Positions 40,576-54,377 of a stretch of DNA of 64,000 nucleotides are shown piece after piece. The notes beneath the pieces are model-generated. The model saw only the letters and a program-made list of their open reading frames with translations, searched no databases and was not told where the DNA came from. This DNA comes from Bacteroidota bacterium (GTDB lineage Bacteria > Bacteroidota > Bacteroidia > B-17B0 > Aurantibacillaceae). Every line of letters begins with the position of its first letter. The stretch's first letter is position 1. The DNA lies in contig JANYGK010000006.1 in NCBI GenBank assembly GCA_025362395.1, positions 1-64,000 of the forward strand, read 5' to 3'. The position numbers and the translations under genes are program-made.

Positions 40576-43011
40576 ATGAAAATATCCCATAACTGGCTTA
40601 AAACGCTTATAAAAACTGATTTAACCCCGCAACAAATTTCTGATTACTTAACCGACTCAGGCCTTGAAGTAGAAGGTATGGAAACCTTTGAAAGCGTTAA
40701 AGGCGGCTTACAAGGCATTGTAATTGGTGAGGTTATTGAAAAAGAAAAACACCCCGATGCCGATAAATTAAGTATTACCAAAGTAAACGTAGGCGGCCCT
40801 GAATTACTCAATATAGTATGCGGTGCGCCAAATGTGGCTGTAGGGCAAAAAGTATTGGTAGCAATGGTTGGTGCTAAGTTATATCCTACCACAGGTGAAC
40901 CGTTCGACATTAAAAAATCGAAAATTCGCGGGGCTGTGAGTGAAGGAATGATTTGCGCAGAAGATGAGATAGGCTTGGGAACAGACCATAACGGCATTTT
41001 AATTTTACCGACAGATGCCGTAGTGGGAATGCCCGCCGGCGAATTTTATAAATTAGAAAAAGATATTATTTTTGATATTGGCTTAACTCCTAACCGCGCC
41101 GATGCTGCTTCACATTACGGTGTAGCCAGGGACTTGCAAGCCATTTTAAACACAAAACATAACACTACGGAATATAAAGCAGAACTTGTTGGCATTAATG
41201 AGTTGCCGCAAGCCAGCAATATCAATACAATGAATATTGCTATTAAAAATTATGAAGCATGTAAACGTTACAGTGGTCTTGTTATTTCCGGCATTACTGT
41301 AAAGCCTTCGCCCGCTTGGTTAAAAAATTATTTACTGGCAATTGGCTTACGCCCTATCAATAACATTGTAGATATTACAAATTTCGTATTGCACGACCTC
41401 GGGCAACCGCTCCACGCCTTTGACATGGATAAAATTACCGGGAATAAGATTATTGTGAAAACAGGTTTAAAAAACGTAAAGTTTAAAACGCTTGACGGTA
41501 TGGAACGGACACTTTTTGAAAACGACTTGATGATCTGCAATGAAAACGAACCAATGTGCATGGCAGGCGTATTTGGCGGCGCAGACAGTGGCGTATCGGA
41601 AAAAACTACAGCCATATTTTTAGAGGCAGCCTATTTTGAACCGGCATTTGTAAGAAGAACGAGCAAGCAACACGGTTTAAAAACAGACAGCAGCTTCCGC
41701 TTTGAACGCGGCACCGATCCTGAAATGACAGTTACCGCTCTTAAACGTGCGGCAGCATTAATTTTTGAATTAGCCGGGGGAGTATTAAGTATGGATACCG
41801 TTGACCTTTATCCGGTTAAACTCGAACCTTTTAAAGTGGCGTTCTCTTATACGAACTGCCAAGACCTGATTGGTAAAGAAATTGACCGTACCATAATTAA
41901 AAACATAATTGTATCACTTGGAATTACGATTGAGCAGGAAGGAAATGACGGCTTATTACTTTCGGTGCCGCAATACAAAACTGATGTAACCCGCGAAGCA
42001 GACGTTATTGAAGAGGTGATGCGTATTTACGGTTATAATAATGTAGAAGAGAGTTCACAGATAAAATTTACGGCAAACTTTACAGACAGGGAAAAAGCAA
42101 CCGCTGCCGAAAACACAACTGCTAATTTATTAATAGGCTTTGGCTTTAATGAAATGATGGGACTTTCGTTAACCAAAGAATCCTATTATGATGAAGCAAC
42201 GCTTTTAGTAAAGATACTAAACCCTTTAAGCGCCGACTTAAATGTGATGCGCCATAGCATGCTGTTTGGCGGCTTGGAATCATTAGCTTATAACATTAAC
42301 CGTAAGCAAGCCGACCTGAAATTATTTGAATTCGGTAAAGCCTACGAGAAAACAGATGCCGACCCTACAGCTACAGAGTTCAAATACGCAGAAACAAAAC
42401 ATGTGACCTTATTTGTTACCGGGAAAAAATACAATGAAAATCCTTTCGGCAAAAACGACAAAGTAGATTTTGCTTTTATAAAAAGTTGCATAGAATCTGT
42501 TTTAAATAAGCTCTCTATTAAATTCAAAATCACCGAGTTAAACAATCCGCAATTCAGTTATGGTTTATCCTTTGCAAATAAAAACAAGCACCTGGTAAAC
42601 TTTGGATTAGTTGATAAAGCAATCTGTAAAAAAATGGATGTTAACGCAGAAGTATTTTATGCTGATTTTAACTGGGATAATGTACTGTCATTGGTAGGAA
42701 AAACAAAATTAGAATTTACAGAAATCCCTAAATTTCCTTCTGTACGAAGAGATCTGGCGCTTTTACTGGATAAAAAAATTACCTACAAAGAGTTGGAAGA
42801 ATTAGCCTATAATACAGAACGTAAACTTTTAAAAGCAGTTAATTTGTTTGATATTTATGAAGGTGATAAACTGGAAGTAGGTAAAAAATCGTACGCATTA
42901 AGCTTTACATTATTGGATGAAGAAGCAACATTGAACGATAAGCAAATTGATAATGTGATGCAAAAACTCATCAAAACTTACACCGAAAAGTTAGGGGCGA
43001 CTTTGCGTTAA
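40576..43011 (+). CDS. pheT: Phenylalanine--tRNA ligase beta subunit
   Basis: 811 residues, the standard size. PheT pairs with PheS to charge tRNA-Phe; pheS is not in the window. Domains in order: an N-terminal fragment with ISHNWLKTLIKTDLTPQQI; a tRNA-binding OB domain (about 40-155, VIGEVIEKEKHPDADKLSI, IVCGAPN); the B3/B4 editing domain (about 210-380; HGLKTDSSFRFERGTDPEM closes it); B5 (about 410-480, YKTDVTREADVIEEVMRIYG); a class II-like core; and the C-terminal FDX-ACB domain (about 715-811, FPSVRRDLALLLD to the end). All parts look intact. It precedes the Ter locus by 68 bp; co-transcription cannot be ruled out. Confidence 0.97.
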   Translation: MKISHNWLKTLIKTDLTPQQISDYLTDSGLEVEGMETFESVKGGLQGIVIGEVIEKEKHPDADKLSITKVNVGGPELLNIVCGAPNVAVGQKVLVAMVGAKLYPTTGEPFDIKKSKIRGAVSEGMICAEDEIGLGTDHNGILILPTDAVVGMPAGEFYKLEKDIIFDIGLTPNRADAASHYGVARDLQAILNTKHNTTEYKAELVGINELPQASNINTMNIAIKNYEACKRYSGLVISGITVKPSPAWLKNYLLAIGLRPINNIVDITNFVLHDLGQPLHAFDMDKITGNKIIVKTGLKNVKFKTLDGMERTLFENDLMICNENEPMCMAGVFGGADSGVSEKTTAIFLEAAYFEPAFVRRTSKQHGLKTDSSFRFERGTDPEMTVTALKRAAALIFELAGGVLSMDTVDLYPVKLEPFKVAFSYTNCQDLIGKEIDRTIIKNIIVSLGITIEQEGNDGLLLSVPQYKTDVTREADVIEEVMRIYGYNNVEESSQIKFTANFTDREKATAAENTTANLLIGFGFNEMMGLSLTKESYYDEATLLVKILNPLSADLNVMRHSMLFGGLESLAYNINRKQADLKLFEFGKAYEKTDADPTATEFKYAETKHVTLFVTGKKYNENPFGKNDKVDFAFIKSCIESVLNKLSIKFKITELNNPQFSYGLSFANKNKHLVNFGLVDKAICKKMDVNAEVFYADFNWDNVLSLVGKTKLEFTEIPKFPSVRRDLALLLDKKITYKELEELAYNTERKLLKAVNLFDIYEGDKLEVGKKSYALSFTLLDEEATLNDKQIDNVMQKLIKTYTEKLGATLR

Positions 43012-43079
43012 TTTTCCGGTTAAAACCCGCATTTCTATCAAATTATTATTATTTTTAACATTCGGGATATTTTTTAATT

Positions 43080-43655
43080 ATGGCAATTAATTTACAAAAA
43101 GGTCAAAAAATAGATATCGGCCTTACTAAGATAAGTGTAGGCTTAGGGTGGAATCCTAATGAGGGCACAGGAAGTGACTTTGATTTGGATGCATCCGCGT
43201 TTATGTTAACGGCAAAAAAAATAATTCCGGCCGATGAATATTTTGTGTTTTACGGCAATACCGATTCTCCCGATAAAGCTCTGTACCATACCGGCGACGA
43301 CCCTACGGGCGGCAATAGCGCTGGCGGAGATGATGAAACTATACAGGTAGATCTTTCAGTAGTGAACCCCGACATTGAAGAGATTTTATTTGTAGTAACC
43401 ATTCATGAATCTGAAAAACGAAAACAAAACTTCGGACAGGTTCGCAACTCATACATTCGTATTGTAGACGAAAATACAAATGCTGAAATCGCCAAATACG
43501 AATTAGGTGAAGATTTTTCAATAGAAACAGCAGTTGAATTCGGCCGCTTATATAAACGAAACGGTGCCTGGAAATTTGAAGCGAGCGGCATCGGTTATAA
43601 AGAAGATCTTTCTTTTTTTGTAAGTAAATATTTTACGGGAGAGATCATTAAATAA
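43080..43655 (+). CDS. TerD family protein, copy 1
   Basis: 191 residues of the TerD/TerE fold, a calcium-binding beta-sandwich. It opens AINLQKGQKIDIG and contains the acidic signature GSDFDLDASAFML (about 30-42), HTGDDPTGGNSAGGDDETI (about 70-88) for calcium coordination, and the closing GQVRNSYIRIVDE plus FSIETAVEFGRLY pattern. TerD proteins are cytoplasmic and occur in operons that confer tellurite, phage or chemical-stress resistance. It is the first gene of the first Ter unit, 39 bp before a diverged TerD-like gene. The C-terminal ending FFVSKYFTGEIIK differs from the two other full TerD copies. Confidence 0.95.
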   Translation: MAINLQKGQKIDIGLTKISVGLGWNPNEGTGSDFDLDASAFMLTAKKIIPADEYFVFYGNTDSPDKALYHTGDDPTGGNSAGGDDETIQVDLSVVNPDIEEILFVVTIHESEKRKQNFGQVRNSYIRIVDENTNAEIAKYELGEDFSIETAVEFGRLYKRNGAWKFEASGIGYKEDLSFFVSKYFTGEIIK

Positions 43656-43694
43656 AAATAATACAATCATATAATTAACCTAAACAACTAAACT

Positions 43695-44357
43695 ATGGCT
43701 ATTAACTTACAGAAAGGACAAAGAATTGATTTAAGAAAATCAGGCGGTTCCACCTTAACCGAATTTTGTGTTGGGGTGAACTGGGGTGCTATCGAGAAAA
43801 AAGGCGGATTATTCGGCTTATCTAAAACATCGGTTAACGTGGATCTTGACCTTAGCTGTGTAATGATTGACACTAACGGCCAAGTGTCTGATCATTTATA
43901 TTCGCCTGATTACAAGCCTGATTTTTTAGCGAAGTTTGGTTTGCCTCCGGGTAAATTAGTATCACGTAACAGTGCCTTAAAACATTCAGGGGATGACCGT
44001 GCAGGTGATTCAGGCGGAGATGACGGATTAGACAATGAAGTAATTACAGTTAATTTAACAGCGATTGAAGCTTCCATCACTCAAATTTTCTTTTTCTTAA
44101 ACAACGTTGGCCAGGAAGATTTTTCTCAGATTCCTTATGCTAAAATTCGTATGTATGAAGGCACACCTACTCAAGTAAAAGAAGTGTTTGCTGATTATAA
44201 CGTTTCTGCCGAAGCTCAGTACACCGGAAAGAAAGCCTTGATCATGGGTAAATTATACAAAAAAGATAATGAATGGAAATTCAATGCTATCGGAGATCCT
44301 ACTGAAGACCGATTTTTAGGAGAAACGATTCAACGCATTGTAAAATCCTATTTATAA
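43695..44357 (+). CDS. TerD-like protein, long variant 1
   Basis: 220 residues with the TerD fold but longer loops. It starts AINLQKGQRIDLRKSGGSTLTEF and has NVDLDLSCVMID (about 55-66) in place of FDLDAS, then a long insertion before KHSGDDRAGDSGGDDGLDNEV (about 96-116). KIRMYEGTPTQVKEVFADYNV replaces the RNSYIRIVD stretch of ordinary TerD proteins. The same replacements occur in the gene at 46511, so the two form a second TerD subfamily. The acidic residues for calcium binding are kept. It is followed without a gap by the HAD gene, whose ATG directly follows the TAA. Confidence 0.88.
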   Translation: MAINLQKGQRIDLRKSGGSTLTEFCVGVNWGAIEKKGGLFGLSKTSVNVDLDLSCVMIDTNGQVSDHLYSPDYKPDFLAKFGLPPGKLVSRNSALKHSGDDRAGDSGGDDGLDNEVITVNLTAIEASITQIFFFLNNVGQEDFSQIPYAKIRMYEGTPTQVKEVFADYNVSAEAQYTGKKALIMGKLYKKDNEWKFNAIGDPTEDRFLGETIQRIVKSYL

Positions 44358-45056
44358 ATGAATTATTTTAATGTACGCCACGTCTCCTTTGATTTATGGT
44401 TAACACTTATAAAGTCAAACCCCGAGTTTAAGCCAAAACGCGACGCATTATTAAAAGATTATTTTAAGATCCCACATCCTGTTGAAGCCATTTCCGCTAA
44501 AATAAGAGTGTGGGATCTTCGTTTTAATGCTATCAATGAAGCCGGCGGTAAAAATATCGATTCCGATGAAATGGTGTTGATCATATTGGCAGACTTGGAC
44601 TGTGATCTTAAACGAATTACACCTAATGTGATGGAAGACTATTATAAAACAATGGAAGAACTGTTTTTTCGCTACCACCCTGTTTTGTATGAAGAATACT
44701 TGCTTGATTATTTAAACCGATTATCAGATAAGGGAATTACCTTAAGTCTTTTAAGCAATACCGGTTTTATAAAAGGAGAAACATTAAAAAAACTATTACA
44801 GCAATTAAAAATAGCGCCTTACTTAAAATTCCAAATCTATTCGGACGAGATTATGTTTTCAAAACCTTCAAAAGAAGCCTACCAACATGTGTTTGATAAC
44901 ATTAAAACGTTTAATACTATAGAAACAAATTCTATTTTACACATTGGTGATAATGAAAATGCTGATTTTATAGGCGCTAAAAATTTGGGCATGCAAAGCG
45001 CGTTGATCAATTCAAATACTATTTCATTACTCAGTTTAAATATTAATACCTATTAA
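44358..45056 (+). CDS. HAD-superfamily hydrolase of the Ter locus
   Basis: 232 residues with the four HAD motifs: motif I FDLWLTLI with nucleophile Asp12, motif II ITLSLLSNTGF (about 130-140), motif III lysine in FSKPSKEAYQHV (about 171-182), and motif IV HIGDNENADFIGAKNLGM (about 195-212). The general acid/base position two residues after the nucleophile is Trp14 instead of Asp, so ordinary phosphatase chemistry may be changed. A helical cap lies between motifs I and II. The gene sits head to tail between a TerD-like and a phosphoribosyltransferase gene with no gaps. Published comparative work on Ter operons reports HAD and phosphoribosyltransferase neighbours and proposes a nucleoside-like metabolite; its identity is not known. 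Confidence 0.85.
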   Translation: MNYFNVRHVSFDLWLTLIKSNPEFKPKRDALLKDYFKIPHPVEAISAKIRVWDLRFNAINEAGGKNIDSDEMVLIILADLDCDLKRITPNVMEDYYKTMEELFFRYHPVLYEEYLLDYLNRLSDKGITLSLLSNTGFIKGETLKKLLQQLKIAPYLKFQIYSDEIMFSKPSKEAYQHVFDNIKTFNTIETNSILHIGDNENADFIGAKNLGMQSALINSNTISLLSLNINTY

Positions 45057-45875
45057 ATGTACCATCATTATTCATTGCACAAAATTGAAGATGATACTCA
45101 GCTCAGTTTTAGCCCGGCAGACTATAGCAATTTTAAATTCGGTGAGCCGGGCACCACTCATCAATTCGGAAAACAGCTCGCAGAAGGTTTTTTAAGCCAA
45201 TACAGTGATTTATTATTACAACATACCGATATTGTTTTTTTACCGAGCCCGTTTAATTATATCCCTACAGCTTCCTATTATTTATCTCAAAAATTTAAAA
45301 CGGAGATCAATAAATTTCTTCACGGGCATCACAAAAAAGCATTGTTGGAATCTAAAATTCACCGCTATAAAACATACAGTGAAGACTATGGAAACCTGAG
45401 CTTTGAAGAACGCCTGCAACTTATTTCATCTGACACTTACCATGTAGATACTAAATTTTTGACTAACCGGTTATGTATTTTTTTAGACGACATAAAAATA
45501 ACGGGAAGCCATGAATTGATAATTCGAAAGATTTTGCAACAAAATAATATTGAAGGCGATTTTATGTTTGTTTACTTTGCGGAACTTACCAATACCAATA
45601 TTTCCCCTACTTTCGAAAACTACCTGAATTACTATCACGTAAAAGGAATTCCTGAAATTAGTGTATTATTAAATCGTGAAGATCTGCAAATAAATACACG
45701 TACCATAAAATTTATTCTAAATGAAAAAAATTCAATAAATTCTCTTATTTTAGAGGTACCAAAGCATATACTGGAAAAAATTACAGACTATGCCATTGGT
45801 AACAATTACCACTTAATGAATGAATATAAAACTAACTTAACTCAAATAATTAAACACATCAATTATGGCAATTAA
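45057..45875 (+). CDS. Phosphoribosyltransferase-like protein of the Ter locus
   Basis: 272 residues. The core resembles type I phosphoribosyltransferases: a parallel sheet with TDIVFLPSPFNYIPTASYYL (about 57-76) and the PRPP-binding loop CIFLDDIKITGSHE (about 140-153) with the usual acidic pair Asp144-Asp145. Residues about 155-200 (FMFVYFAELTN) continue the fold, and residues about 200-272 form a tail without a recognised domain. Such enzymes join PRPP to a base or acid. The ORF starts one base after the HAD stop and overlaps the next TerD gene by 11 bp, so HAD, phosphoribosyltransferase and TerD are translationally coupled. Acceptor unknown. Confidence 0.78.
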   Translation: MYHHYSLHKIEDDTQLSFSPADYSNFKFGEPGTTHQFGKQLAEGFLSQYSDLLLQHTDIVFLPSPFNYIPTASYYLSQKFKTEINKFLHGHHKKALLESKIHRYKTYSEDYGNLSFEERLQLISSDTYHVDTKFLTNRLCIFLDDIKITGSHELIIRKILQQNNIEGDFMFVYFAELTNTNISPTFENYLNYYHVKGIPEISVLLNREDLQINTRTIKFILNEKNSINSLILEVPKHILEKITDYAIGNNYHLMNEYKTNLTQIIKHINYGN

Positions 45876-46416
45876 CTTACAAAAAGGACAAAGAGAAAGC
45901 TTAAATGCTCAAAAATTTACCATTGGTTTAGGCTGGGATACCAATGCGAGCTCAACAGGCGCGGCGTTCGATTTAGACGCTTCGGTTTTTATTTTAGGGG
46001 GCAATTCTAAATTAATTGCCGACGACTATTTTGTATTTTACAATAACAGCAAATCTCCCGATGGCGCTGTAACCCACACAGGCGATAATTTAACGGGCGA
46101 CGGTGACGGTGATGATGAATCAATCACCGTAGACCTTTCTAAAATAAACCCTGCCGTACAGGAAATATGTGTAGTGGTTACTATACATGATGCCGGTGCA
46201 AGAAAACAAAATTTCGGACAAGTTCGTAATTCATTTATCCGCATTATTGATGAGCAAAATAATGTATTGGTAAAATATGAACTGGATGAAGATTTTTCGG
46301 TTGAGACAGCGGTTGAGTTTGGCCGCATTTACAGAAAAGATTCGCAATGGAAATTTGAAGCCATTGGTGCCGGCATGAAAGGCGGACTGGAAGACTATTT
46401 AAAAAAATATAATTAA
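45865..46416 (+). CDS. TerD family protein, copy 2
   Basis: 183 residues, a standard TerD protein: GAAFDLDASVFILGG (about 31-45), HTGDNLTGDGDGDDESI (about 72-88), GQVRNSFIRIIDE, and FSVETAVEFGRIY, ending KFEAIGAGMKGGLEDYLKKYN. It closely resembles the copy at 50040, including the final MKGGL-DYL-KYN tail, while copy 1 at 43080 ends differently. It overlaps the phosphoribosyltransferase gene by 11 bp, which places it firmly in the operon. A palindromic repeat follows before the next TerD-like gene. Confidence 0.95.
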   Translation: MAINLQKGQRESLNAQKFTIGLGWDTNASSTGAAFDLDASVFILGGNSKLIADDYFVFYNNSKSPDGAVTHTGDNLTGDGDGDDESITVDLSKINPAVQEICVVVTIHDAGARKQNFGQVRNSFIRIIDEQNNVLVKYELDEDFSVETAVEFGRIYRKDSQWKFEAIGAGMKGGLEDYLKKYN

Positions 46417-46427
46417 TAAAAGTAAAG

Positions 46428-46484
46428 GTCATTACGAACCTGTTTCGGAATCTTATGAGATGCAGAATCAAGTTCAGCATGACG
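46428..46484. repeat. Large imperfect palindrome inside the Ter operon
   Basis: Two 26-base arms (46428-46453 and 46458-46483) with several mismatches and a TATG loop; the outer parts GTCAT...GAAC and GTTC...ATGAC pair. It lies between the TerD gene and the TerD-like gene. It would fold in RNA as a long hairpin, which may stabilise or attenuate the transcript. It resembles REP-like elements, and its CAGCATGACG end also occurs at 13148-13157. Confidence 0.7.
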
Positions 46485-46510
46485 TAAATTCATAACCCAA
46501 TTAAATAACA

Positions 46511-47119
46511 ATGGCAATTAATTTAGAAAAAGGACAACGCATTAACCTTGAAAAAGTTAATGGTACCAAGCTTAATAACATTTGTGTAGGCGTTAACTGG
46601 GGCGCCATGGAAAAAAAAGGCCTCTTCGGTACAAAAAAAGAAGCGGTTGATTTGGATGCAAGCTGTGCTGTGTATGATATCGATAAAAAAAATATGGATA
46701 CCGTAAGCTTCCGCCAAAAAAGATCGAAGGACCAGGCTATTCAACACAGCGGCGATGACCTTACCGGTGATATGAACGGCGATGACGGACTGGATAATGA
46801 AGTCATTAAACTGGATTTTTCTAAATTAAACCCTGCTGCTAATTATGTAGCCTTTTTTATTAATAGCTTCCGAGGGCAGGATTTTAAAGACATTCCCTTT
46901 GCAAGCATTCGTATTTATGAAGGCACGCCAACGCAGGTAAACGAAGTATTTGCAAAGTATGACATCGCTAACGATCCCTCTTTTGCAGGAAGCGTATCCA
47001 TGGTATTAGGTGTATTCTATAAAAAGAATAACGAGTGGAAATTCAATGCCATTGGTATGCCTTCTCCTGATAAGCGACTAGAAGATACAGTTATCACAAT
47101 TCAAAAAAATCATTTATAA
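46511..47119 (+). CDS. TerD-like protein, long variant 2
   Basis: 202 residues, paralogous to the gene at 43695: AINLEKGQRINLEKVNGTKLNNI, VGVNWGAMEKKGLFG, AVDLDASCAVYD (about 51-62), HSGDDLTGDMNGDDGLDNEV (about 83-102), and IRIYEGTPTQVNEVFAKYD. The insertion between the two acidic motifs is shorter than in the first variant. Calcium-binding acidic residues are kept. It begins after the palindrome and is followed 12 bp later by telA. The repeated order TerD then long TerD-like suggests an ancestral tandem block duplication around the HAD and phosphoribosyltransferase genes. Confidence 0.88.
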   Translation: MAINLEKGQRINLEKVNGTKLNNICVGVNWGAMEKKGLFGTKKEAVDLDASCAVYDIDKKNMDTVSFRQKRSKDQAIQHSGDDLTGDMNGDDGLDNEVIKLDFSKLNPAANYVAFFINSFRGQDFKDIPFASIRIYEGTPTQVNEVFAKYDIANDPSFAGSVSMVLGVFYKKNNEWKFNAIGMPSPDKRLEDTVITIQKNHL

Positions 47120-47131
47120 TAATAAAACAAC

Positions 47132-48223
47132 ATGGAAAATAATGAAGTAACTATTGTAGATAATTCCGCCAATCCTTTGGATAAGGACGGAAATGTACAC
47201 TTGGAAAAAATACAACCCTCTGAACTGGCTAATTACACAGCCCTTTCGAACCAATTGAACGAGAACGATGTAAATTCCGTTATGAATTACGGAGCAGACA
47301 TTCAAAATAATATCGCCAAACAAAGTGATACATTTTTAACGAATGTACGTACCTATAATTCAGGTGATGTAGGCGGACACATCAATGAACTGTTAACTGA
47401 GTTGAATTACATTGACGTTGATCAGTTAAATCAAAGTCCTTTTAAACGCGCGCTTTCCAAAATTCCATTTTTAAATAAACTGGTAGTGGACGTTAAAAAA
47501 TTGTTTCAACAATACGATAAAATTACTGCTAACGTTGATAAGATCAGTAATAAAGTGAAAGCGGGAATGATCAACTCCGTAAAAGATAATTCTTCTTTAC
47601 AAACCATGTTTGATGCAAACGTAGGCCTGATCAAAGAAATGGAAAAGCATATTGTAGCCGGACAATTAAAGTTTACGCAGGTAAATGAAGAGTTGACTCA
47701 GATGGACGCCAATCCTTCGCAATACCAGGATTATCAAATTGCCGACAAACGTAACTTTGCGGCTCGTATTGACAAGCGTTTAGCGGATATGAAAATTGTT
47801 CGTTTTATTATGATCCAATCACTGGCGCAAATCCGGGTGGTGCAAAACAACAATACATCCATCGCCGAAAAAGCACAGTCTATTTTAACGACCACCATGC
47901 CGGTTTGGAAAAACCAGTTAACCTTAGCAGTGGCATTACAAAGACAAAAAGCAAACATTGAAATACAGCGTAAAGTATCGGAAACAACTAATACCATTTT
48001 ACAGAAAAATGCAGATATGCTGAAACAAAACAGTATTGAAGTTGCTAAAGAAAATGAAAATACAGTGGTATCATTGGAGACTTTAAAAATGACCACTAAA
48101 TCGTTGATTGAAACGTTAACGGAAGTAAAAGCGATTCATGAACAGGGAACTGAAACAAGAAGACAGTTGGATGCAGGATTACAGAGCCTGGAAGCTGAAT
48201 TGAAAAAAGGGGTTACCGGTTAA
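47132..48223 (+). CDS. Toxic anion resistance protein, TelA/KlaA family
   Basis: 363 residues, mostly alpha-helical. Regions typical of TelA: an N-terminal stretch with NQLNENDVNSVMNYGADIQNN (in part), SPFKRALSKIPFLNKLVVDVKKLFQQYDKITANVDKI (position about 107-143; quoted only to locate it in short), a central MIQSLAQIRVVQNNNTSIAEKAQS near 231-254, and a helical C-terminus ending LEAELKKGVTG. The family is linked to tellurite and other toxic anion resistance and is widely found with TerD and vWA genes. It is cytoplasmic, possibly membrane-associated. It is the last gene of the first Ter unit, followed after 22 bp by a terminator. Confidence 0.93.
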   Translation: MENNEVTIVDNSANPLDKDGNVHLEKIQPSELANYTALSNQLNENDVNSVMNYGADIQNNIAKQSDTFLTNVRTYNSGDVGGHINELLTELNYIDVDQLNQSPFKRALSKIPFLNKLVVDVKKLFQQYDKITANVDKISNKVKAGMINSVKDNSSLQTMFDANVGLIKEMEKHIVAGQLKFTQVNEELTQMDANPSQYQDYQIADKRNFAARIDKRLADMKIVRFIMIQSLAQIRVVQNNNTSIAEKAQSILTTTMPVWKNQLTLAVALQRQKANIEIQRKVSETTNTILQKNADMLKQNSIEVAKENENTVVSLETLKMTTKSLIETLTEVKAIHEQGTETRRQLDAGLQSLEAELKKGVTG

Positions 48224-48244
48224 ATTTAAGAGAAATAACATATT

Positions 48245-48269
48245 AAAAGCCACTAACGTGGTTTTTTTG
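48245..48269 (+). terminator. Rho-independent terminator after telA
   Basis: The stem AAAGCCAC (48246-48253) with GTGGTTTT (48258-48265), one G-T pair, loop TAAC, then TTT. Its T run also supplies the upstream TTTG of the next promoter. Confidence 0.7.
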
Positions 48270-48296
48270 TAAATTAAATGGTAATACGTATCTTTA
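48266..48296 (+). promoter_or_regulatory. Promoter of the toxin-antitoxin pair
   Basis: TTTG at 48266-48269, 19 bp, then TATCTTTA at 48289-48296 (one mismatch to TAnnTTTG). The predicted start lies about 12 bases before the ATG at 48314, arguing against an in-frame GTG/ATG start further upstream at 48278. Confidence 0.55.
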
Positions 48297-48313
48297 CTAA
48301 AAAAACACGTATC

Positions 48314-48556
48314 ATGACTACCAAATTAACATTAACTGTAGAAAAGTCTGTAATTGAACGGGCAAAGTCATATGCTAAAAATACCGGCAGGAGTTTATCT
48401 GATTTAGTAGAAAGCTATTTGGAACAAATTGTGGAAAATACTAACGTTCAAAGTATCTCTCCTTCATTAAAAAAAATTGTAGGATCTGTTAAGCTTCCTA
48501 AAAACTTTGATGAAGACAAAGAGCTTCATTCGTATTTTGAGGAGAAGCACTTATGA
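48314..48556 (+). CDS. Antitoxin, RHH/DUF6364-like
   Basis: 80 residues from the ATG at 48314; an upstream in-frame start at 48278 would lie in the promoter. The N-terminal half TTKLTLTVEKSVIERAKSYAKNTGRSLSDLVESYL has the beta strand plus two helices of ribbon-helix-helix DNA-binding proteins (DUF6364-like antitoxins). The C-terminal half (LPKNFDEDKELHSYFEEKHL) is charged and probably wraps the toxin. The stop overlaps the PIN toxin start (ATGA at 48553-48556), as is usual in type II modules. It lies between the two Ter transcription units with its own promoter. Confidence 0.83.
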   Translation: MTTKLTLTVEKSVIERAKSYAKNTGRSLSDLVESYLEQIVENTNVQSISPSLKKIVGSVKLPKNFDEDKELHSYFEEKHL

Positions 48557-48969
48557 AGAAAATATTTGTTGATACCAACATCCTTGTTGATCTCATAGCA
48601 GACAGACGCCCTTTTAGTAAATTCGCTATAGAAATTTTCAGTAAGGCGGAAAACAAGAAGATTAAACTCTTCACTTCTTCGCATTCCATAGCCACTACGC
48701 ATTATTTATTAAAAAAATATGTAGCTGAAAAAGAATTAAGAGATATTCTTTATAATTTATTAGAATTTGTTAATGTAATACCTGTAGATTCAGATACCAT
48801 AAAAAAAGGACTAAAATCAAAACATAAGGATTTTGAAGATGCTATACAAATGATCTGTGCTTATTCTATTGAGAAAATAGATTGCATTGTTACAAGAAAC
48901 ATAAAAGACTTTCGCGACAGCGAAATACTTGTTTTACCTCCCGATGAGCTTGTAAAAAAAATTCAATAA
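48553..48969 (+). CDS. PIN-domain toxin (VapC-like)
   Basis: 138 residues forming a PIN domain: KKIFVDTNILVDLIADRRP with the first acidic residue Asp7, a helical middle (SSHSIATTHYLLKKY), the second acidic site in HKDFEDAIQM (about 94-103), and TRNIKDFRDSEILVLPPDEL (about 116-135), the usual closing motif. PIN toxins are Mg-dependent ribonucleases that cut tRNA or rRNA. The gene looks intact, unlike the decayed pair at 39996-40528. It pairs with the overlapping antitoxin. Confidence 0.9.
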   Translation: MKKIFVDTNILVDLIADRRPFSKFAIEIFSKAENKKIKLFTSSHSIATTHYLLKKYVAEKELRDILYNLLEFVNVIPVDSDTIKKGLKSKHKDFEDAIQMICAYSIEKIDCIVTRNIKDFRDSEILVLPPDELVKKIQ

Positions 48970-48994
48970 AACGGTTATTACGACTGAAACAGAC

Positions 48995-49025
48995 TTTGAA
49001 AATAGCTGTAATTACTTTAAATTTG
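48995..49025 (+). promoter_or_regulatory. Complete Bacteroidota promoter for the second Ter unit
   Basis: TTTG at 48995-48998 and TAAATTTG at 49018-49025 with a 19 bp spacer match the consensus in all fixed bases. The leader to the ATG at 49062 would be about 30 nt. This shows that genes 49062-53289 form a transcription unit separate from the first Ter block. Confidence 0.75.
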
Positions 49026-49061
49026 TTAGGCATATTCGGTAAGGCACCGTAATAGGAAGAG

Positions 49062-50036
49062 ATGGAAAACAAAGAGGATCAGGAAACATTTAAACAAATT
49101 ATAAACGACAGCAAAAAAAAACTGTCTACTTTAAAAATAGTATCGAATTTTTTTAACCATCCCGATCTTATCTCTATTCAAATTCGTACTAATGTTATTC
49201 ATAATTTATTTGAGAACAACAAAAACCTTGATATTCATAAGCTTGACCTGTTTCATATTCAGTACACAAACAGTTTAATTGAATTATTTCAGAAATTAAA
49301 AAAATCGAAAGAACAAAAATACCTTTTGATCAGTGATGAGATTTACATTAACGACGATTTTATAGCCAAGCTCAATACAGAAATGAGTCATGTTCCTTTT
49401 GTAGATGAATCAAGAGAACACTCGAGAACCGTTGCTGAAAAAATTGAAGTGTTGTATAAGCTGTTTGCAGAGGGTGGAAATACTCATTTTGATTGGTCTG
49501 CTGTTACCCAATTTGTAAATAAACGAAGCAACGAGTTTTACAGGGAGCTAACCGAACAACAGTATGTAAAGCTTACAAACCACACAGGTAAACAAACTTA
49601 CCAAAACACCTATGTTACTTTTGAAAAGAAATTATTGGGTAAATTAAATATTCAGAAGTTTAAGATCAAGTTTTTATGCGGCCTTCGTTATGAAACGGAC
49701 GAAGTAGAAGTATATGAATTCATTAATTCTAATGATAAATTTATTTTCATAACTGACAAAAAAATCTTTTATTTAATAGATGATTCGCATGTTTTAGGGA
49801 TAGACCTGTCAAAGAACGAATCTCAGAAAGAAGAGGTAATTGACAAATTAGTAAACAAGAATCTGCAATTAAAAGATCAGTTAAGTACCGTTAAAACTTC
49901 TATGCCTAAAGACGTAGAGAATGTATTAGAAAGTTATTTAGAAAAAATATCAGATGTTGAGTTCCTGGACGATCTACAAAATGTGGATGAACAAACCAAC
50001 ATCTTAAAAGCAATGTTAAACATTAATATAAAATAA
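49062..50036 (+). CDS. Unrecognised protein at the head of the second Ter unit
   Basis: 324 residues that I cannot assign to a family. No signal peptide or membrane segment, so probably cytoplasmic. Residues 1-100 are helical and charged (DSKKKLSTLKIVSNFFNHPDL). Residues about 100-230 contain DESREHSRTVAEKIEVLYKLF and QYVKLTNHTGKQTYQNTYV. Residues about 200-265 look like a small beta region (KFIFITDKKIFYLIDDSHVLGIDL), and 270-324 is a helical tail possibly forming a coiled coil (VNKNLQLKDQLSTVKTSMPK). It lies 3 bp before a TerD gene under a strong promoter, so a role in the Ter system, for example as a scaffold or a ligand-binding partner, is plausible but unproven. Confidence 0.7.
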   Translation: MENKEDQETFKQIINDSKKKLSTLKIVSNFFNHPDLISIQIRTNVIHNLFENNKNLDIHKLDLFHIQYTNSLIELFQKLKKSKEQKYLLISDEIYINDDFIAKLNTEMSHVPFVDESREHSRTVAEKIEVLYKLFAEGGNTHFDWSAVTQFVNKRSNEFYRELTEQQYVKLTNHTGKQTYQNTYVTFEKKLLGKLNIQKFKIKFLCGLRYETDEVEVYEFINSNDKFIFITDKKIFYLIDDSHVLGIDLSKNESQKEEVIDKLVNKNLQLKDQLSTVKTSMPKDVENVLESYLEKISDVEFLDDLQNVDEQTNILKAMLNINIK

Positions 50037-50039
50037 ACT

Positions 50040-50594
50040 ATGGCAATTAATTTAGAAAAAGGACAAAGGGAAAGTATTTCATCACCAAAATTTACTGTAG
50101 GTTTAGGCTGGGACAGTAATTCGAGCTCAACAGGCGAAGCATTTGATTTAGATGCTTCCGTTTTTGTTTTAGGAGCAAACGGAAAATTACTAAGTGATAA
50201 TCACTTTGTATATTATAATAATTTAAAAACACCCGATCAGGCTGTAGTTCATATAGGGGATAATACAACCGGTGCAGGGGATGGCGATGATGAAAAAATA
50301 ATCGTTGACATCTCAAAACTATCAGGCGATGTAGCAGAAATTTCTTTTGTAGTAACCATACATAAAGCACAGGAACGCCGACAAAATTTCGGACAGATCC
50401 GTAATTCATTTATCCGCGTGGTAGACGATTCATCTAATTCTGAATTAGTAAAGTATGAATTAGATGAAGATTTCTCCATTGAAACAGCGGTACAATTCGG
50501 CCGAATCTATAAAAAGAATAACGAATGGAAATTTGAAGCCGTTGGAGCAGGAATGAAAGGCGGCCTGCAGGATTACTTAACTAAATATAACTAA
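50040..50594 (+). CDS. TerD family protein, copy 3
   Basis: 184 residues, a regular TerD protein: AINLEKGQRESISSPKFTVGLGW, GEAFDLDASVFVLG (about 31-44), HIGDNTTGAGDGDDEKI (about 72-88), GQIRNSFIRVVDDSS and FSIETAVQFGRIY, ending MKGGLQDYLTKYN. It is nearest to the copy at 45865, and the divergence suggests an old duplication. It lies 3 bp after the unrecognised protein and 6 bp before the first vWA gene, so it is tightly linked to both. Confidence 0.95.
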   Translation: MAINLEKGQRESISSPKFTVGLGWDSNSSSTGEAFDLDASVFVLGANGKLLSDNHFVYYNNLKTPDQAVVHIGDNTTGAGDGDDEKIIVDISKLSGDVAEISFVVTIHKAQERRQNFGQIRNSFIRVVDDSSNSELVKYELDEDFSIETAVQFGRIYKKNNEWKFEAVGAGMKGGLQDYLTKYN

Positions 50595-50600
50595 ATTATA

Positions 50601-51239
50601 ATGAGAAAATTACCCGTTTATTTATTATTAGACACATCCGGTTCGATGAGCGGAGAACCAATTGAGGCTGTAAAAAATGGCGTTCAGGTAATGATCAGTT
50701 CATTAAGACAAAATCCGCAAGCTATTGAAACCGCTTTCCTGAGCGTAATTACTTTTAACAGCTCAGCAACACAATTGATTCCGTTAACAGATCTGGCTTC
50801 GTTTCAAATGTTGGATATTAAGGCATCAGGAACAACCTCACTTGGTGAAGCATTAAGCCTTGTAGCCAGATGTATTGATAACGAGGTACAACAAACTACT
50901 ACCGAAAAAAAGGGAGACTGGAAGCCGTTAGTATTTATTATGACGGATGGTGTGCCAACCGACAACTGGCAAAATGGATTAGCAGAATTTAAAAGACGGA
51001 AAATTGCGTATACAGTTGCCTGCGCGGCAGGTTCAGGCGCCGATACAAGCGTATTAAAACAAATTACCGATAATGTGGTAAGTCTTGATACTGCCGACGG
51101 GAACAGCATTGCAAAATTCTTTGCATGGGTTACCGCATCCATTGGCGTAAGCTCAACTAAAGTGGAAGATTCAGGGAAAGAAGTAACCGGTATTAATGAA
51201 TTGCCTCCCCCACCTTCCGAATTAAACATTGTTGTTTAA
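50601..51239 (+). CDS. TerY-like von Willebrand factor A protein 1
   Basis: 212 residues forming a single vWA domain with an intact metal-ion-dependent adhesion site: DTSGS at 11-15, the threonine in SGTTSLGEAL (about 72-81), and the aspartate in MTDGVPTD (about 113-120). It has no signal peptide, so it acts in the cytoplasm, like TerY proteins, which bind partners through a bound divalent metal. The C-terminus is a short proline-rich tail (ELPPPPSELNIVV) shared in form with the next gene (LPTPPSEVHLVI), which may be a docking peptide. Spacing of 6 bp to TerD copy 3 implies one operon. Confidence 0.93.
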   Translation: MRKLPVYLLLDTSGSMSGEPIEAVKNGVQVMISSLRQNPQAIETAFLSVITFNSSATQLIPLTDLASFQMLDIKASGTTSLGEALSLVARCIDNEVQQTTTEKKGDWKPLVFIMTDGVPTDNWQNGLAEFKRRKIAYTVACAAGSGADTSVLKQITDNVVSLDTADGNSIAKFFAWVTASIGVSSTKVEDSGKEVTGINELPPPPSELNIVV

Positions 51240-51282
51240 TTAAATAAAACCTGTTAAGCCATAGCAGATAAAACAAAAAACG

Positions 51283-51918
51283 ATGAGAAGACTTCCTGTA
51301 TATTTTTTGTTAGACACTTCCGGGTCTATGTATGGAGAACCAATACAGGCGCTAAATAATGCCTTGAGTGGAATGATTAATACATTAAGATCAGATGCAC
51401 AGGCATTGGATTCATTATGGATAAGCATTGTTACATTTGACAGGGAAGTAAAAGAAATTGTGCCGTTAACTGAATTGGTAAATTTTCAGCTGCCAGAAAT
51501 TATGTGTCCTCAAAGCGGCCCTACCAATATGGGAGAAGCTTTAATGCTGTTAAGTAAAATGGTGAAAGCCGATATCAGGAAAGGCACAGACGATCAAAAA
51601 GGAGATTGGAAACCGTTATTATTTTTAATGACGGATGGCAGTCCTTCCGATCTGGCATTATTCAGAGAAGCCGTTCCGGTAATTAAAAATTTAAACTTCG
51701 GTGCTATCATTGCCTGTGCGGCCGGTCCAAAATCAAAAGATGAATTTTTAAAAGAGATTACACCAAACGTTGTGCATCTTGATACTGCCGACAGCTTAAC
51801 GCTTAAATCGTTTTTTAAATGGGTGTCAGACACCATTGAAAACGGCAATAAAAGCGTTGGCGTTACCGAATCATTAACGCTCCCTACTCCACCTTCTGAA
51901 GTTCATTTAGTTATTTAA
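51283..51918 (+). CDS. TerY-like von Willebrand factor A protein 2
   Basis: 211 residues, a tandem paralogue of the preceding vWA protein: DTSGS at 11-15, the conserved threonine in SGPTNMGEAL, and MTDGSPSD. The site appears intact. Regions FDREVKEIVPLTELVNFQLP and TPNVVHLDTADSLTLKSFFKWV match its neighbour. The C-terminal LTLPTPPSEVHLVI repeats the proline-rich tail. It lies 43 bp after its paralogue and 12 bp before the small membrane protein gene. Confidence 0.93.
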   Translation: MRRLPVYFLLDTSGSMYGEPIQALNNALSGMINTLRSDAQALDSLWISIVTFDREVKEIVPLTELVNFQLPEIMCPQSGPTNMGEALMLLSKMVKADIRKGTDDQKGDWKPLLFLMTDGSPSDLALFREAVPVIKNLNFGAIIACAAGPKSKDEFLKEITPNVVHLDTADSLTLKSFFKWVSDTIENGNKSVGVTESLTLPTPPSEVHLVI

Positions 51919-51930
51919 ACAAACCATCCT

Positions 51931-52197
51931 ATGCGTTTATTATTTTCACTGGCATCCATTTTTATAAACGTCCTTATCATAGGCTTATTTTTATATTCTA
52001 AACTCTTACCTTATAAAGACAGACTTACCGGGAATTATAAAAAAGCGTTTATTTTTTTTGATTCTTTATACAAGCCTGTTTTTAATTGGTTAAAACAACG
52101 CGTAAAGCCTCATCAGGTTGGAAACGGATTGTTCGTTGATATGTCCCAATTTATTGTTCTGTTAATTTTGTTGTTTTTAATAACGCTGTTACATTAA
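51931..52197 (+). CDS. Small YggT-like membrane protein
   Basis: 88 residues with two membrane segments (about 3-21 and 69-87) and a basic loop between them (YKPVFNWLKQRVKPHQVGNGLFVDMSQF, about 50-77, quoted by position). The loop order, a short basic segment, a glycine-containing turn and then D-x-S before the second span, is like YggT family proteins, of which this would be half-sized (one unit instead of two). Both termini are probably periplasmic or both cytoplasmic; this cannot be decided. It lies between two vWA genes with 12 and 15 bp gaps. It could anchor the soluble Ter proteins at the membrane, in place of TerC, which is not present here. Confidence 0.6.
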   Translation: MRLLFSLASIFINVLIIGLFLYSKLLPYKDRLTGNYKKAFIFFDSLYKPVFNWLKQRVKPHQVGNGLFVDMSQFIVLLILLFLITLLH

Positions 52198-52212
52198 TTA
52201 TAACTCAAATAC

Positions 52213-53289
52213 ATGAGAAGATTACCAATTTATTTTTTAATAGATATTTCTGAATCCATGGTTGGAGAGCCGATTCAGCAGGTAGAAGAAGGATTGGCAA
52301 CCATTATAAAAGAATTAAAAACCGATCCCTACTCTATTGAAACCGTTTGGGTTTCCATTATTGTATTTGCAGGTCAACCCAAAACTATTGTTCCTTTACA
52401 GGAGATTATTAATTTTTATCCTCCTAAATTTCCTATAGGCAGCGGTACATCTTTAAGCAAAGGACTTGGACATGTAATGTTTGAGCTCAGACAAAATATA
52501 GTAACCACTACTTACGAGAAAAAAGGAGATTGGAAACCGATCGTATTTTTATTTACGGACGGCGTACCAACGGATGATACAAAATTAGCCATACAGGAAT
52601 GGAAACAAAACTGGCAACGCACCGCTAACATGGTAGCGGTATCGTTTGGTGAAGAAGCGGATATGTACTTGTTATCTGAACTGACAGAAAATGTACTGCA
52701 CTTTAAAAATACAGATTCTAATTCCTACAAAACATTTTTTAGGTGGGTTACTGATTCCATTAAAACCAGCAGCGTAAGCGTTGAAAATAACACAGGAAGT
52801 TTTGACCTTGCTAAATTAGACGGAGATACCTTGTTTGCAGCGGATCTAAAGAATGCCCCCGGGAGTTCCGCTTCGCCTAATACATTATATGCCGCTCACG
52901 TCGATTCAAATTTTGTAGTGCTTTCAGGCAAGTGTCAAAATTCGAAACGACCGTATTTAATGAAATATAAAAAGTCTATTTCAGATTCAGGAATTTATTC
53001 AGGACTTGAAACACGCTCGTATCGGTTAGTTGGTGCTTTTCAGGTAGATAATTCTTATTACGAACTAACCGATAATAATGAGAACGGCTTTAAAATAAAT
53101 ACTACTGAATTGATGGGTTCACCCACTTGCCCTTGCTGCGGAAACCAATATGGCTTTGCCATGTGCAGCTGCGGAAAAATTCATTGCATCGGTGATGAAA
53201 CCGAAAGTACCTGCCCTTGGTGCGGCACTAAAGGGAAGTACGGCATGAGCGGTGACGGAGGATTTGATGTAACTCGTGCGCAGGGATAG
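52213..53289 (+). CDS. TerY-like vWA protein with C-terminal cysteine-rich metal-binding domain
   Basis: 358 residues. Residues 1-190 are a vWA domain with the metal site DISES (11-15), SGTSLSKGLG (about 77-86) and FTDGVPTDD (about 115-123). A middle region (about 195-300) carries KCQNSKRPYLMKYKK and GLETRSYRLVGAFQVDNSYYEL, similar to the TerY C-terminal region. The last part (about 303-345) is a zinc-binding cluster with eight cysteines: 306, 308, 309, 318, 320, 325, 334 and 337 (CPCC, CSC, C, CPWC). TerY-like proteins with such tails occur in Ter operons. It is the last gene of the second unit. No clear terminator was seen after it. Confidence 0.9.
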   Translation: MRRLPIYFLIDISESMVGEPIQQVEEGLATIIKELKTDPYSIETVWVSIIVFAGQPKTIVPLQEIINFYPPKFPIGSGTSLSKGLGHVMFELRQNIVTTTYEKKGDWKPIVFLFTDGVPTDDTKLAIQEWKQNWQRTANMVAVSFGEEADMYLLSELTENVLHFKNTDSNSYKTFFRWVTDSIKTSSVSVENNTGSFDLAKLDGDTLFAADLKNAPGSSASPNTLYAAHVDSNFVVLSGKCQNSKRPYLMKYKKSISDSGIYSGLETRSYRLVGAFQVDNSYYELTDNNENGFKINTTELMGSPTCPCCGNQYGFAMCSCGKIHCIGDETESTCPWCGTKGKYGMSGDGGFDVTRAQG

Positions 53290-53324
53290 TTGCGTAAATT
53301 AACTGAACGTATAGTACGATTTGC

Positions 53325-53354
53325 CACTTCGAGTGTGCCACAGGAGCGTATCGA
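53325..53354. repeat. Short intergenic repeat of the CACTTCGAGTG...GAGCGTATCGA type
   Basis: The sequence CACTTCGAGTGTGCCACAGG followed by AGCGTATCGA matches a repeat I associate with the intergenic regions of many Bacteroidota. It lies in the 209 bp between the Ter locus and dapA. The rest of that gap has no ORF and only weak hairpins. Confidence 0.4.
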
Positions 53355-53498
53355 TTATGCATTAATAAAATGGCCTTAGTTTAAGTGGTCAATTACAGCC
53401 TTTCGCCAAAAACACAACCGTACCTTTAAAAAGGTTTTGCGAAAATGCAATTAAAAAAAAGTAAGTAGTAGAAAGCTCAATTTTATACTCATGCATAT

Positions 53499-54377
53499 TT
53501 AATAAGCCAGTTTCTTTAATTTAGCTTTCACTTCATCATTAGGCTCTACCAAAGGTAAACGAACGGCTGCCTGTGTAATTTTCTTTTGAGCCAACACTAC
53601 TTTTACACCACCCGGGTTACCGTCGGCAAATAATTGTTCCGTAATTTCCATTAGTTTATAATGTAACTTTTGGGCGGTTTTAAAATCATGTACCAAAGCT
53701 GAACGCACCATATCGCTAAAATCTTTCGGATACGCGTTAGCCACTACAGAGATTACACCATCTGCGCCGCTTGCTATTAAAGGAAGCGTTAAGGTATCAT
53801 CACCACTGATAATTAAAAAATTATCGGGGCGATGCTTAATAATCTTCATGCATTGTTCGATATTGCCGCTTGCTTCTTTAATAGCAATGATATTTTTAAA
53901 TTCATTTGCTAAACGAATGGTGGTGTCCCATGTTATATTTGAAGCGGTACGTCCGGGAACGTTATATAAAATAACAGGCAGCGGACTCGCTTTTGCAACG
54001 GCTTTATAATGTTGGTAAATGCCTTCTTGCGAAGGCTTATTATAATAAGGTGATACAGAAAGAATAGCCGAAAAAGCGGAAAGATCAGCAGTTTTAAGCA
54101 TCTTAACAAGCTCTGCCGTATTATTACCTCCTGCTCCAAGCACTAAAGGCACACGCTTTTTAGTGACTGTAATGATGTGATTAATTATTTCCTGTTTTTC
54201 TTCATTTGATAGAGTCGCGGTTTCACCGGTTGTTCCTAATACAACTATATACTCCACTCTTCCTTTTATAATGTGTTCTACTAATTTGGTTAATGCCGGG
54301 AAATCAATAGCTCCTTTAGTTGTAAACGGCGTAACAATTGCTACACCTGTACCGGTAAAATTGGGTGATTGAGTCAT
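53499..54377 (-). CDS. dapA: 4-hydroxy-tetrahydrodipicolinate synthase
   Basis: 292 residues, full length. DapA condenses pyruvate with aspartate semialdehyde at the start of the diaminopimelate/lysine pathway. Key elements: GTGVAIVTPFTTKGAID (about 6-22), GTTGETATLSNEEKQEI (about 48-64), the tyrosine in YYNKPSQEGIYQHY (about 111-124), YNVPGRTA (about 137-144), and the Schiff-base lysine in IKEASGNIEQ (about 165-174). The catalytic Thr, Tyr and Lys are all present. It follows the DUF6913-like gene by 3 bp on the minus strand, a pairing seen in Bacteroidota. Confidence 0.96.
   Translation of the reverse strand: MTQSPNFTGTGVAIVTPFTTKGAIDFPALTKLVEHIIKGRVEYIVVLGTTGETATLSNEEKQEIINHIITVTKKRVPLVLGAGGNNTAELVKMLKTADLSAFSAILSVSPYYNKPSQEGIYQHYKAVAKASPLPVILYNVPGRTASNITWDTTIRLANEFKNIIAIKEASGNIEQCMKIIKHRPDNFLIISGDDTLTLPLIASGADGVISVVANAYPKDFSDMVRSALVHDFKTAQKLHYKLMEITEQLFADGNPGGVKVVLAQKKITQAAVRLPLVEPNDEVKAKLKKLAY

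Follow-up and report, generated by a model that had tools for sequence, protein, structure and literature searches.

A Ter stress island of recurrent Bacteroidota layout, apparently split by rearrangement, with an orphan protein that accompanies TelA

The first 64,000 nucleotides of contig JANYGK010000006.1 (assembly GCA_025362395.1, a Bacteroidota bacterium of the Aurantibacillaceae), hereafter the window, carry a cluster of Ter stress-response genes at positions 43080-53289. Comparison with other genomes indicates that this cluster is a known kind of stress island with a layout that recurs in Bacteroidota, and that its odd look is due to a rearrangement and an insertion. The island is built from a core of TerD, long TerD (TerDL), HAD and PRTase_3 phosphoribosyltransferase (PRTase) genes, a module formed by TelA and an orphan protein, a TerY-P module (the vWA proteins, a YGGT-like protein, TerY, a PP2C phosphatase, and a kinase), and TerC. 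We hold this anatomy, together with the history given below, with high confidence.

Recurrent layout and the inserted gene pair

A scan of named genomes for the orphan protein located 14 loci, 12 in Flavobacteriaceae and 2 in Pedobacter, and a class-wide scan for PRTase_3 gave matches in 22 of 396 genomes. In Flavobacterium and Pedobacter, the genes recur in the order HAD-PRTase-TerDb-TerDLb-TelA-orphan-TerDc-(TerDLa), a block that often continues with vWA-(vWA)-(YGGT)-TerY-PP2C-kinase-TerC. The original prediction, made from the window alone, had described two transcription units in an unusual order. The order is not unusual, as it is found in annotated loci of both genera, while the joining of the two halves stood: 12 other loci combine the TelA half with the vWA/TerY half. 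Of the TerD-containing loci located through PRTase_3, 12 have TelA together with the orphan gene and 5 have neither (Fisher P = 1.6e-4). To judge from these gene orders, the Bacteroidota Ter locus is modular, with TelA and the orphan as a fixed pair.

Like the window, the Flavobacterium and Pedobacter loci (L031-L044) contain HAD-PRTase-TerDb-TerDLb-TelA-orphan-TerDc. That of Flavobacterium sp. Root935 (L038) also carries vWA-vWA-YGGT-TerY-PP2C-kinase-TerC, which matches the window taken together with genes on another contig (C1) of the same genome. In contrast to the window, these loci are contiguous, lack a toxin-antitoxin pair, have TerDLa 3' of TerDc rather than 3' of TerDa, and encode additional small proteins (SM137 and SM163). 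The small Ter-locus proteins SM137 (L038:12204-12614), SM140 (L046:12915-13334), and SM163 (L038:13988-14476) had no Pfam match, and none is encoded in the window.

The Ter genes of the window are closely packed on a single strand, with pheT (40576-43011) upstream and dapA (53499-54377, opposite strand) downstream. The features are as follows, where G068 is a congener:
43080-43655, plus strand: TerDa, TerD-domain protein of 191 amino acids (PF02342, E 1e-67; same-slot orthologue in G068 with 93% identity)
43695-44357, plus strand: TerDLa, long TerD-domain protein of 220 amino acids (PF02342, E 1.5e-30)
44358-45056, plus strand: HAD hydrolase of 232 amino acids with motif I D-x-W-x-T (PF13419/PF00702)
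45057-45875, plus strand: PRTase_3 phosphoribosyltransferase of 272 amino acids with an intact phosphoribosyl pyrophosphate (PRPP) loop, DDIKITG (PF15610, E 3e-75)
45865-46416, plus strand: TerDb (PF02342, E 7e-72)
46511-47119, plus strand: TerDLb, long TerD-domain protein (PF02342, E 4e-33)
47132-48223, plus strand: TelA (PF05816, E 3e-90)
48250-48268, plus strand: terminator-like hairpin and T run 3' of TelA, read by eye
48278-48556, plus strand: putative antitoxin, DUF6364, ribbon-helix-helix (RHH)-like (PF19891, E 4e-26)
48553-48969, plus strand: putative toxin with a PIN_3 domain (PF13470, E 5e-17), overlapping the antitoxin gene by 4 bp
48996-49025, plus strand: predicted Bacteroidota-type promoter TTG-N19-TAnnTTTG of the second unit (pattern scan; same in G068)
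49062-50036, plus strand: orphan TelA-associated protein of 324 amino acids, here named ORP324 (no Pfam match)
50040-50594, plus strand: TerDc (PF02342, E 6e-73; solved TerD structures 2kxt/2kxv, E 1e-57)
50601-51239, plus strand: vWA1 with the metal ion-dependent adhesion site (MIDAS) motif DTSGS (PF00092 and motif)
51283-51918, plus strand: vWA2 with MIDAS motif DTSGS (PF00092 and motif)
51931-52197, plus strand: small YGGT-like membrane protein of 88 amino acids (its orthologues in L060 and L061 score above the PF02325 cut-off)
52213-53289, plus strand: TerY, vWA and TerY_C metal-binding domains (PF15616, E 5e-51)
53290-53498, no strand: TerY/dapA rearrangement junction, from comparison with G068 and the relative G082

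These assignments confirmed the genes listed by the original prediction where it had placed them (by Pfam, or through orthologues for the YGGT-like protein) and supported its reading of a Ter system in a Bacteroidota-like genome; the cysteine cluster that it had noted is the known TerY_C domain (PF15616). There are five PF02342 genes, every one inside the window. A motif check found the PRPP loop, the MIDAS, and the kinase and PP2C motifs intact. Just 5' of TerDa, at about 43038-43060, a 22-bp stretch, TCAAATTATTATTATTTTTAAC, is identical in G068 while the remaining spacer differs; TCAAATTATTATTATTTTTAAC is possibly a promoter or a regulator site.

The TerD paralogues were compared in a quick tree of 75 proteins, in which the branches between TerD and TerDL are long and the deep joins were not relied on. 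TerDa fell outside the TerDb/TerDc clade, and TerDLa of the window clustered with Flavobacterium genes that follow TerDc. These placements do not support the proposal, made from the window, that TerDa-TerDLa and TerDb-TerDLb arose by block duplication around HAD-PRTase. An old duplication of the pair around TelA-orphan, giving TerDb-TerDLb and TerDc-TerDLa, is possible.

Most of the presumed boundary between the two units is occupied by the DUF6364/PIN pair (48278-48969), which the original prediction had missed. Its small RHH-like antitoxin gene overlaps the PIN toxin gene, as in type II systems, and we regard the pair as a putative VapBC-like type II toxin-antitoxin. None of the other TelA-orphan loci located contains a DUF6364-PIN pair. 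TelA and the orphan gene are separated by 838 bp in the window, 428 bp in G068, and 413 bp in L049, but by just 7-39 bp in all other loci. Because the other loci lack the pair and their gaps are mostly so short, it appears to be an insertion particular to the window's genome and foreign to the Ter locus. A search for a toxin-antitoxin remnant in the 428-bp gap of G068 found none. A second, diverged DUF6364-PIN pair is present in the window's genome (G000:C100:91973-92643, L149).

The same evidence bears on the idea that the island is mainly an anti-phage defense in which the PIN toxin serves as a built-in effector of abortive infection. Ter modules have been linked to phage inhibition (PMC7824862, PMC3710099), TelA and PRTase_3 have relatives in phages, and the distribution is patchy, with 5 of 87 genomes of the order and 22 of 396 genomes of the class. 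However, the other TelA-orphan loci lack the supposed effector pair, and PADLOC returned nothing but generic kinase matches for the ten proteins tested. We consider this explanation unlikely.

Bacteroidota promoters follow the pattern TTG...TAnnTTTG. The element TTG-N19-TAAATTTG at 48996-49025 fits it and recurs with its flanking bases at the same position in G068, which bears out the promoter originally predicted at 48995. The predicted terminator fared less clearly: a hairpin and T run can be seen by eye at 48250-48268 and were not listed by the scan, and the TelA-orphan gap of G068 holds a different hairpin and T run. The promoter before the orphan gene is common to the window and G068, which suggests that the genus really does transcribe the locus as two units. 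Across loci, the two-unit arrangement is not general, since TelA nearly touches the orphan gene in most of them. The conserved module boundary also lies elsewhere than originally proposed, as the orphan gene goes with TelA and not with the vWA unit.

The displaced arm and the history of the island

A search of the window's own genome (G000) found PP2C at G000:C1:33250-34659 and TerC (PF03741) at C1:36313, with the kinase between them. This block spans G000:C1:33250 to about 37011 and is followed by the gene Ch240. The C1 TerC gene lies beside PP2C and the kinase, in the same context as in G068, where pheT-TerDa...TerY-PP2C-kinase-PrsW-TerC-Ch240 is unbroken. In G000, the next gene after TerY is dapA, and the order on C1 is DEAD-PP2C-kinase-TerC-Ch240, where DEAD is a DEAD-box gene. 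In the relative G082 (L090), which has dapA-DEAD-M42, dapA and DEAD adjoin each other. Because the junctions TerY/dapA and DEAD/PP2C are reciprocal, they point to a single rearrangement, an inversion or a translocation with breakpoints at TerY/PP2C and dapA/DEAD, that moved PP2C-kinase-TerC. All members of the TerY-P triad (TerY, kinase, and PP2C) are thus present, adjacent in relatives and on two contigs in G000. Since no part is missing, the split system is probably functional, and its kinase arm is probably now under separate transcription. A PrsW-family intramembrane protease lies at the kinase/TerC end in G010 and G068 (L046:17398-18429, L065:14403-15455); on C1, the kinase and TerC have no such gene between them.

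The split might instead be an assembly artifact, the true genome having one contiguous locus like that of G068. The genome is a 118-contig draft, so that misassembly at both junctions is possible, and contigs of the relative G013 end inside TerY. However, the two junctions are reciprocal and interior to long contigs of 78 kb and 72 kb, and dapA and the DEAD-box gene are true neighbors in G082. Because the junctions share no exact repeat longer than 11 bp that could mislead an assembler, misassembly is less likely, and we rate an artifact as improbable.

Somewhat less probable still is the view taken in the original prediction, a truly reduced Ter system that lost TerC and runs on the window genes alone: the window does lack TerC, PP2C, kinase, TerB, and ATP-grasp genes, and ATP-grasp is absent genome-wide, but the intact PP2C, kinase, and TerC on C1, followed by the genes that also follow them in G068, refute gene loss, and the genome holds two further TerC-family genes. 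These genes were separated by rearrangement, not lost. Thus, the absence of TerC is true of the window and false of the genome, whereas that of ATP-grasp holds for both; there is no stand-alone TerB, but a TerB domain lies inside a 1027-amino acid protein elsewhere in the genome.

Among 20 genomes of the genus, 15 have a Ch240 homologue immediately after pheT. The Ter island follows pheT only in G000 and G068, G083 has another gene there, and two genomes were uninformative. Because the site after pheT is empty in most congeners, the Ter locus is best read as a chromosomal island inserted between pheT and its usual neighbor. Between G000 and G068, island proteins are 74-93% identical, a divergence similar to that of PheT (82%). 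Synonymous sites are saturated in each of the sixteen island genes compared, which include the three displaced ones, and nonsynonymous divergence (dN) is 0.05-0.18; dN/dS ratios are not given because of this saturation. Synonymous saturation with so low a dN indicates that the island genes are real and that purifying selection acts on all of them. The simplest history is one insertion in a common ancestor, long upkeep by selection, and a later split in the lineage of the window.

The enzyme pair and the orphan protein

The island encodes a biosynthetic type of pair, a PF15610 phosphoribosyltransferase with an intact PRPP loop and a HAD protein. The PRPP-loop motif DD(I/V)xxTG is present in all 35 aligned PRTase_3 homologues. 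Motif I of the HAD protein, D-x-W-x-T, is invariant in 34 aligned PRTase_3-linked homologues (L031-L063) and is also found in Rhizobium and Hymenobacter plasmid pairs. The HAD-PRTase_3 pair occurs apart from TerD genes as well, on Rhizobium pRL10 and in one Rhizobium phage. In G079 and G461 (L048 and L062), the same enzymes have another context, beside proteins of ~500 amino acids that look OmpA-like by eye.

The classical Ter system (terZABCDEF and biosynthetic genes, as on Pseudomonas citronellolis pRBL16) shares with the window's system the TerD paralogues, TerC (here on C1), vWA proteins, and a HAD protein with a phosphoribosyltransferase. Its enzymes differ: pRBL16 has ATPgrasp_Ter (PF15632), PRTase_2/TRSP (PF15609), DxDxT HADs, and HpcH/StiP, whereas the window has PRTase_3 and one DxWxT HAD, and ATPgrasp_Ter (PF15632) is absent from G000. 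Stand-alone TerB, common but not universal in Ter islands, is also missing, TerB occurring only as a domain of the 1027-amino acid protein; TerB was dispensable for tellurite resistance in one study (PMC8779313). As compared to the classical system, TelA, the orphan, and TerY-P modules are added, and the system is split in two places. HAD and PRTase_3 thus appear to be an alternative enzyme set and not a remnant of the classical one, so that "reduced" does not describe the enzyme side either. As in the Helicobacter pylori island (PMC4978471), relatives of the window's genome have adjacent genes for PP2C, kinase, and a TerY with TerY_C. The H. pylori-type triad accompanies DNA-processing and type VII secretion genes, while here it accompanies TerD, TelA, and YGGT genes, with TerY in G000 on another contig than kinase and PP2C.

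An independent profile search of 392 Bacteroidota genomes found 15 full-length orphan genes, including that of the window. TelA is the neighboring gene in all 14 others, while the window's copy is separated from TelA by the inserted pair alone. This adjacency, together with the joint presence and absence described above, argues that the orphan gene belongs with TelA. An alignment of 26 homologues revealed a conserved C-terminal segment with the consensus NVDEQTNILKAMLNIN. The AlphaFold (AF2) model, with a predicted local distance difference test score (pLDDT) of 84 and a predicted template modeling score of 0.63, comprises an extended helical N-terminal region, a small beta domain, and C-terminal helices; the beta domain folded alone reached a pLDDT of 91. 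The sequence had no significant match in Pfam, NCBIfam, PADLOC, or a PDB profile search, and Foldseek gave nothing significant for the full model or the beta domain against the PDB, or for the full model against a viral library. Searches of plasmids and viral contigs gave no homologue. A Rieske identity was discarded, as the NCBIfam score of 16.6 bits against a cut-off of 97.4 is noise. The orphan family might be a TelA partner that is both obligate and structurally new and, together with DxWxT-HAD/PRTase_3, mark a distinct and separately evolved Bacteroidota Ter chemistry that makes another signal than the ATP-grasp/PRTase_2 type; we regard this as doubtful.

Proposed working and significance

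In the published Ter model, a phosphoribosyltransferase and HAD proteins make a nucleoside-like signal that TerD and TerB sense, with TerC in the membrane and TelA/TerF in submembrane structures (PMC7824862, citing Anantharaman 2012); the TerY-P triad adds phosphorylation (PMC4978471). The nucleotide-like signal of the original prediction is therefore this published model and not a new idea. In Escherichia coli, terC and terD are minimal and sufficient for tellurite resistance (PMC8779313). TerC supports tolerance to envelope-active drugs and envelope stress (PMC9933665), and TerC proteins metalate exported proteins (PMC12096827).

Applied to the gene content of the window's locus, the model would run as follows. 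Upon stress, HAD and PRTase_3 would make a nucleoside-like metabolite. The Ca2+-binding TerD proteins may either buffer the response or sense this metabolite. TerY and the vWA proteins would present substrates, in a metal-dependent manner, to the kinase/PP2C pair, which would act as the switch of the system. TelA and the orphan protein could form a scaffold beneath the inner membrane, where TerC, through metal transport, and the YGGT-like protein would keep the envelope working. We offer this mechanism tentatively, at slightly less than even confidence, and find anatomy, history, and mechanism taken jointly to be somewhat probable.

Besides the draft state of the assembly, other points weigh against this explanation. 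The TelA-orphan module is missing from L046, L055, L060, and L061 despite the presence of HAD, PRTase, and TerY, and the TerY-P module is missing from some other loci. Because each is missing somewhere, neither module is essential to every version of the system. The HAD protein lacks the second Asp of motif I, the general acid of ordinary phosphatases, and its ordinary phosphatase chemistry is therefore uncertain.

Ter islands are widespread, and their Bacteroidota form appears to be modular, with a fixed TelA-orphan pair and an enzyme pair unlike that of classical islands. In the window's genome, a natural rearrangement seems to have uncoupled the kinase/phosphatase/TerC arm from the rest of the island, and a window read alone can thus pass off a split operon as a reduced system. 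The interest of the locus is modest and lies mainly in the alternative enzymes and in the pairing of the orphan protein with TelA. The orphan protein, which accompanies TelA and has no match in sequence or fold libraries, is the best lead and offers a concrete entry point to TelA.

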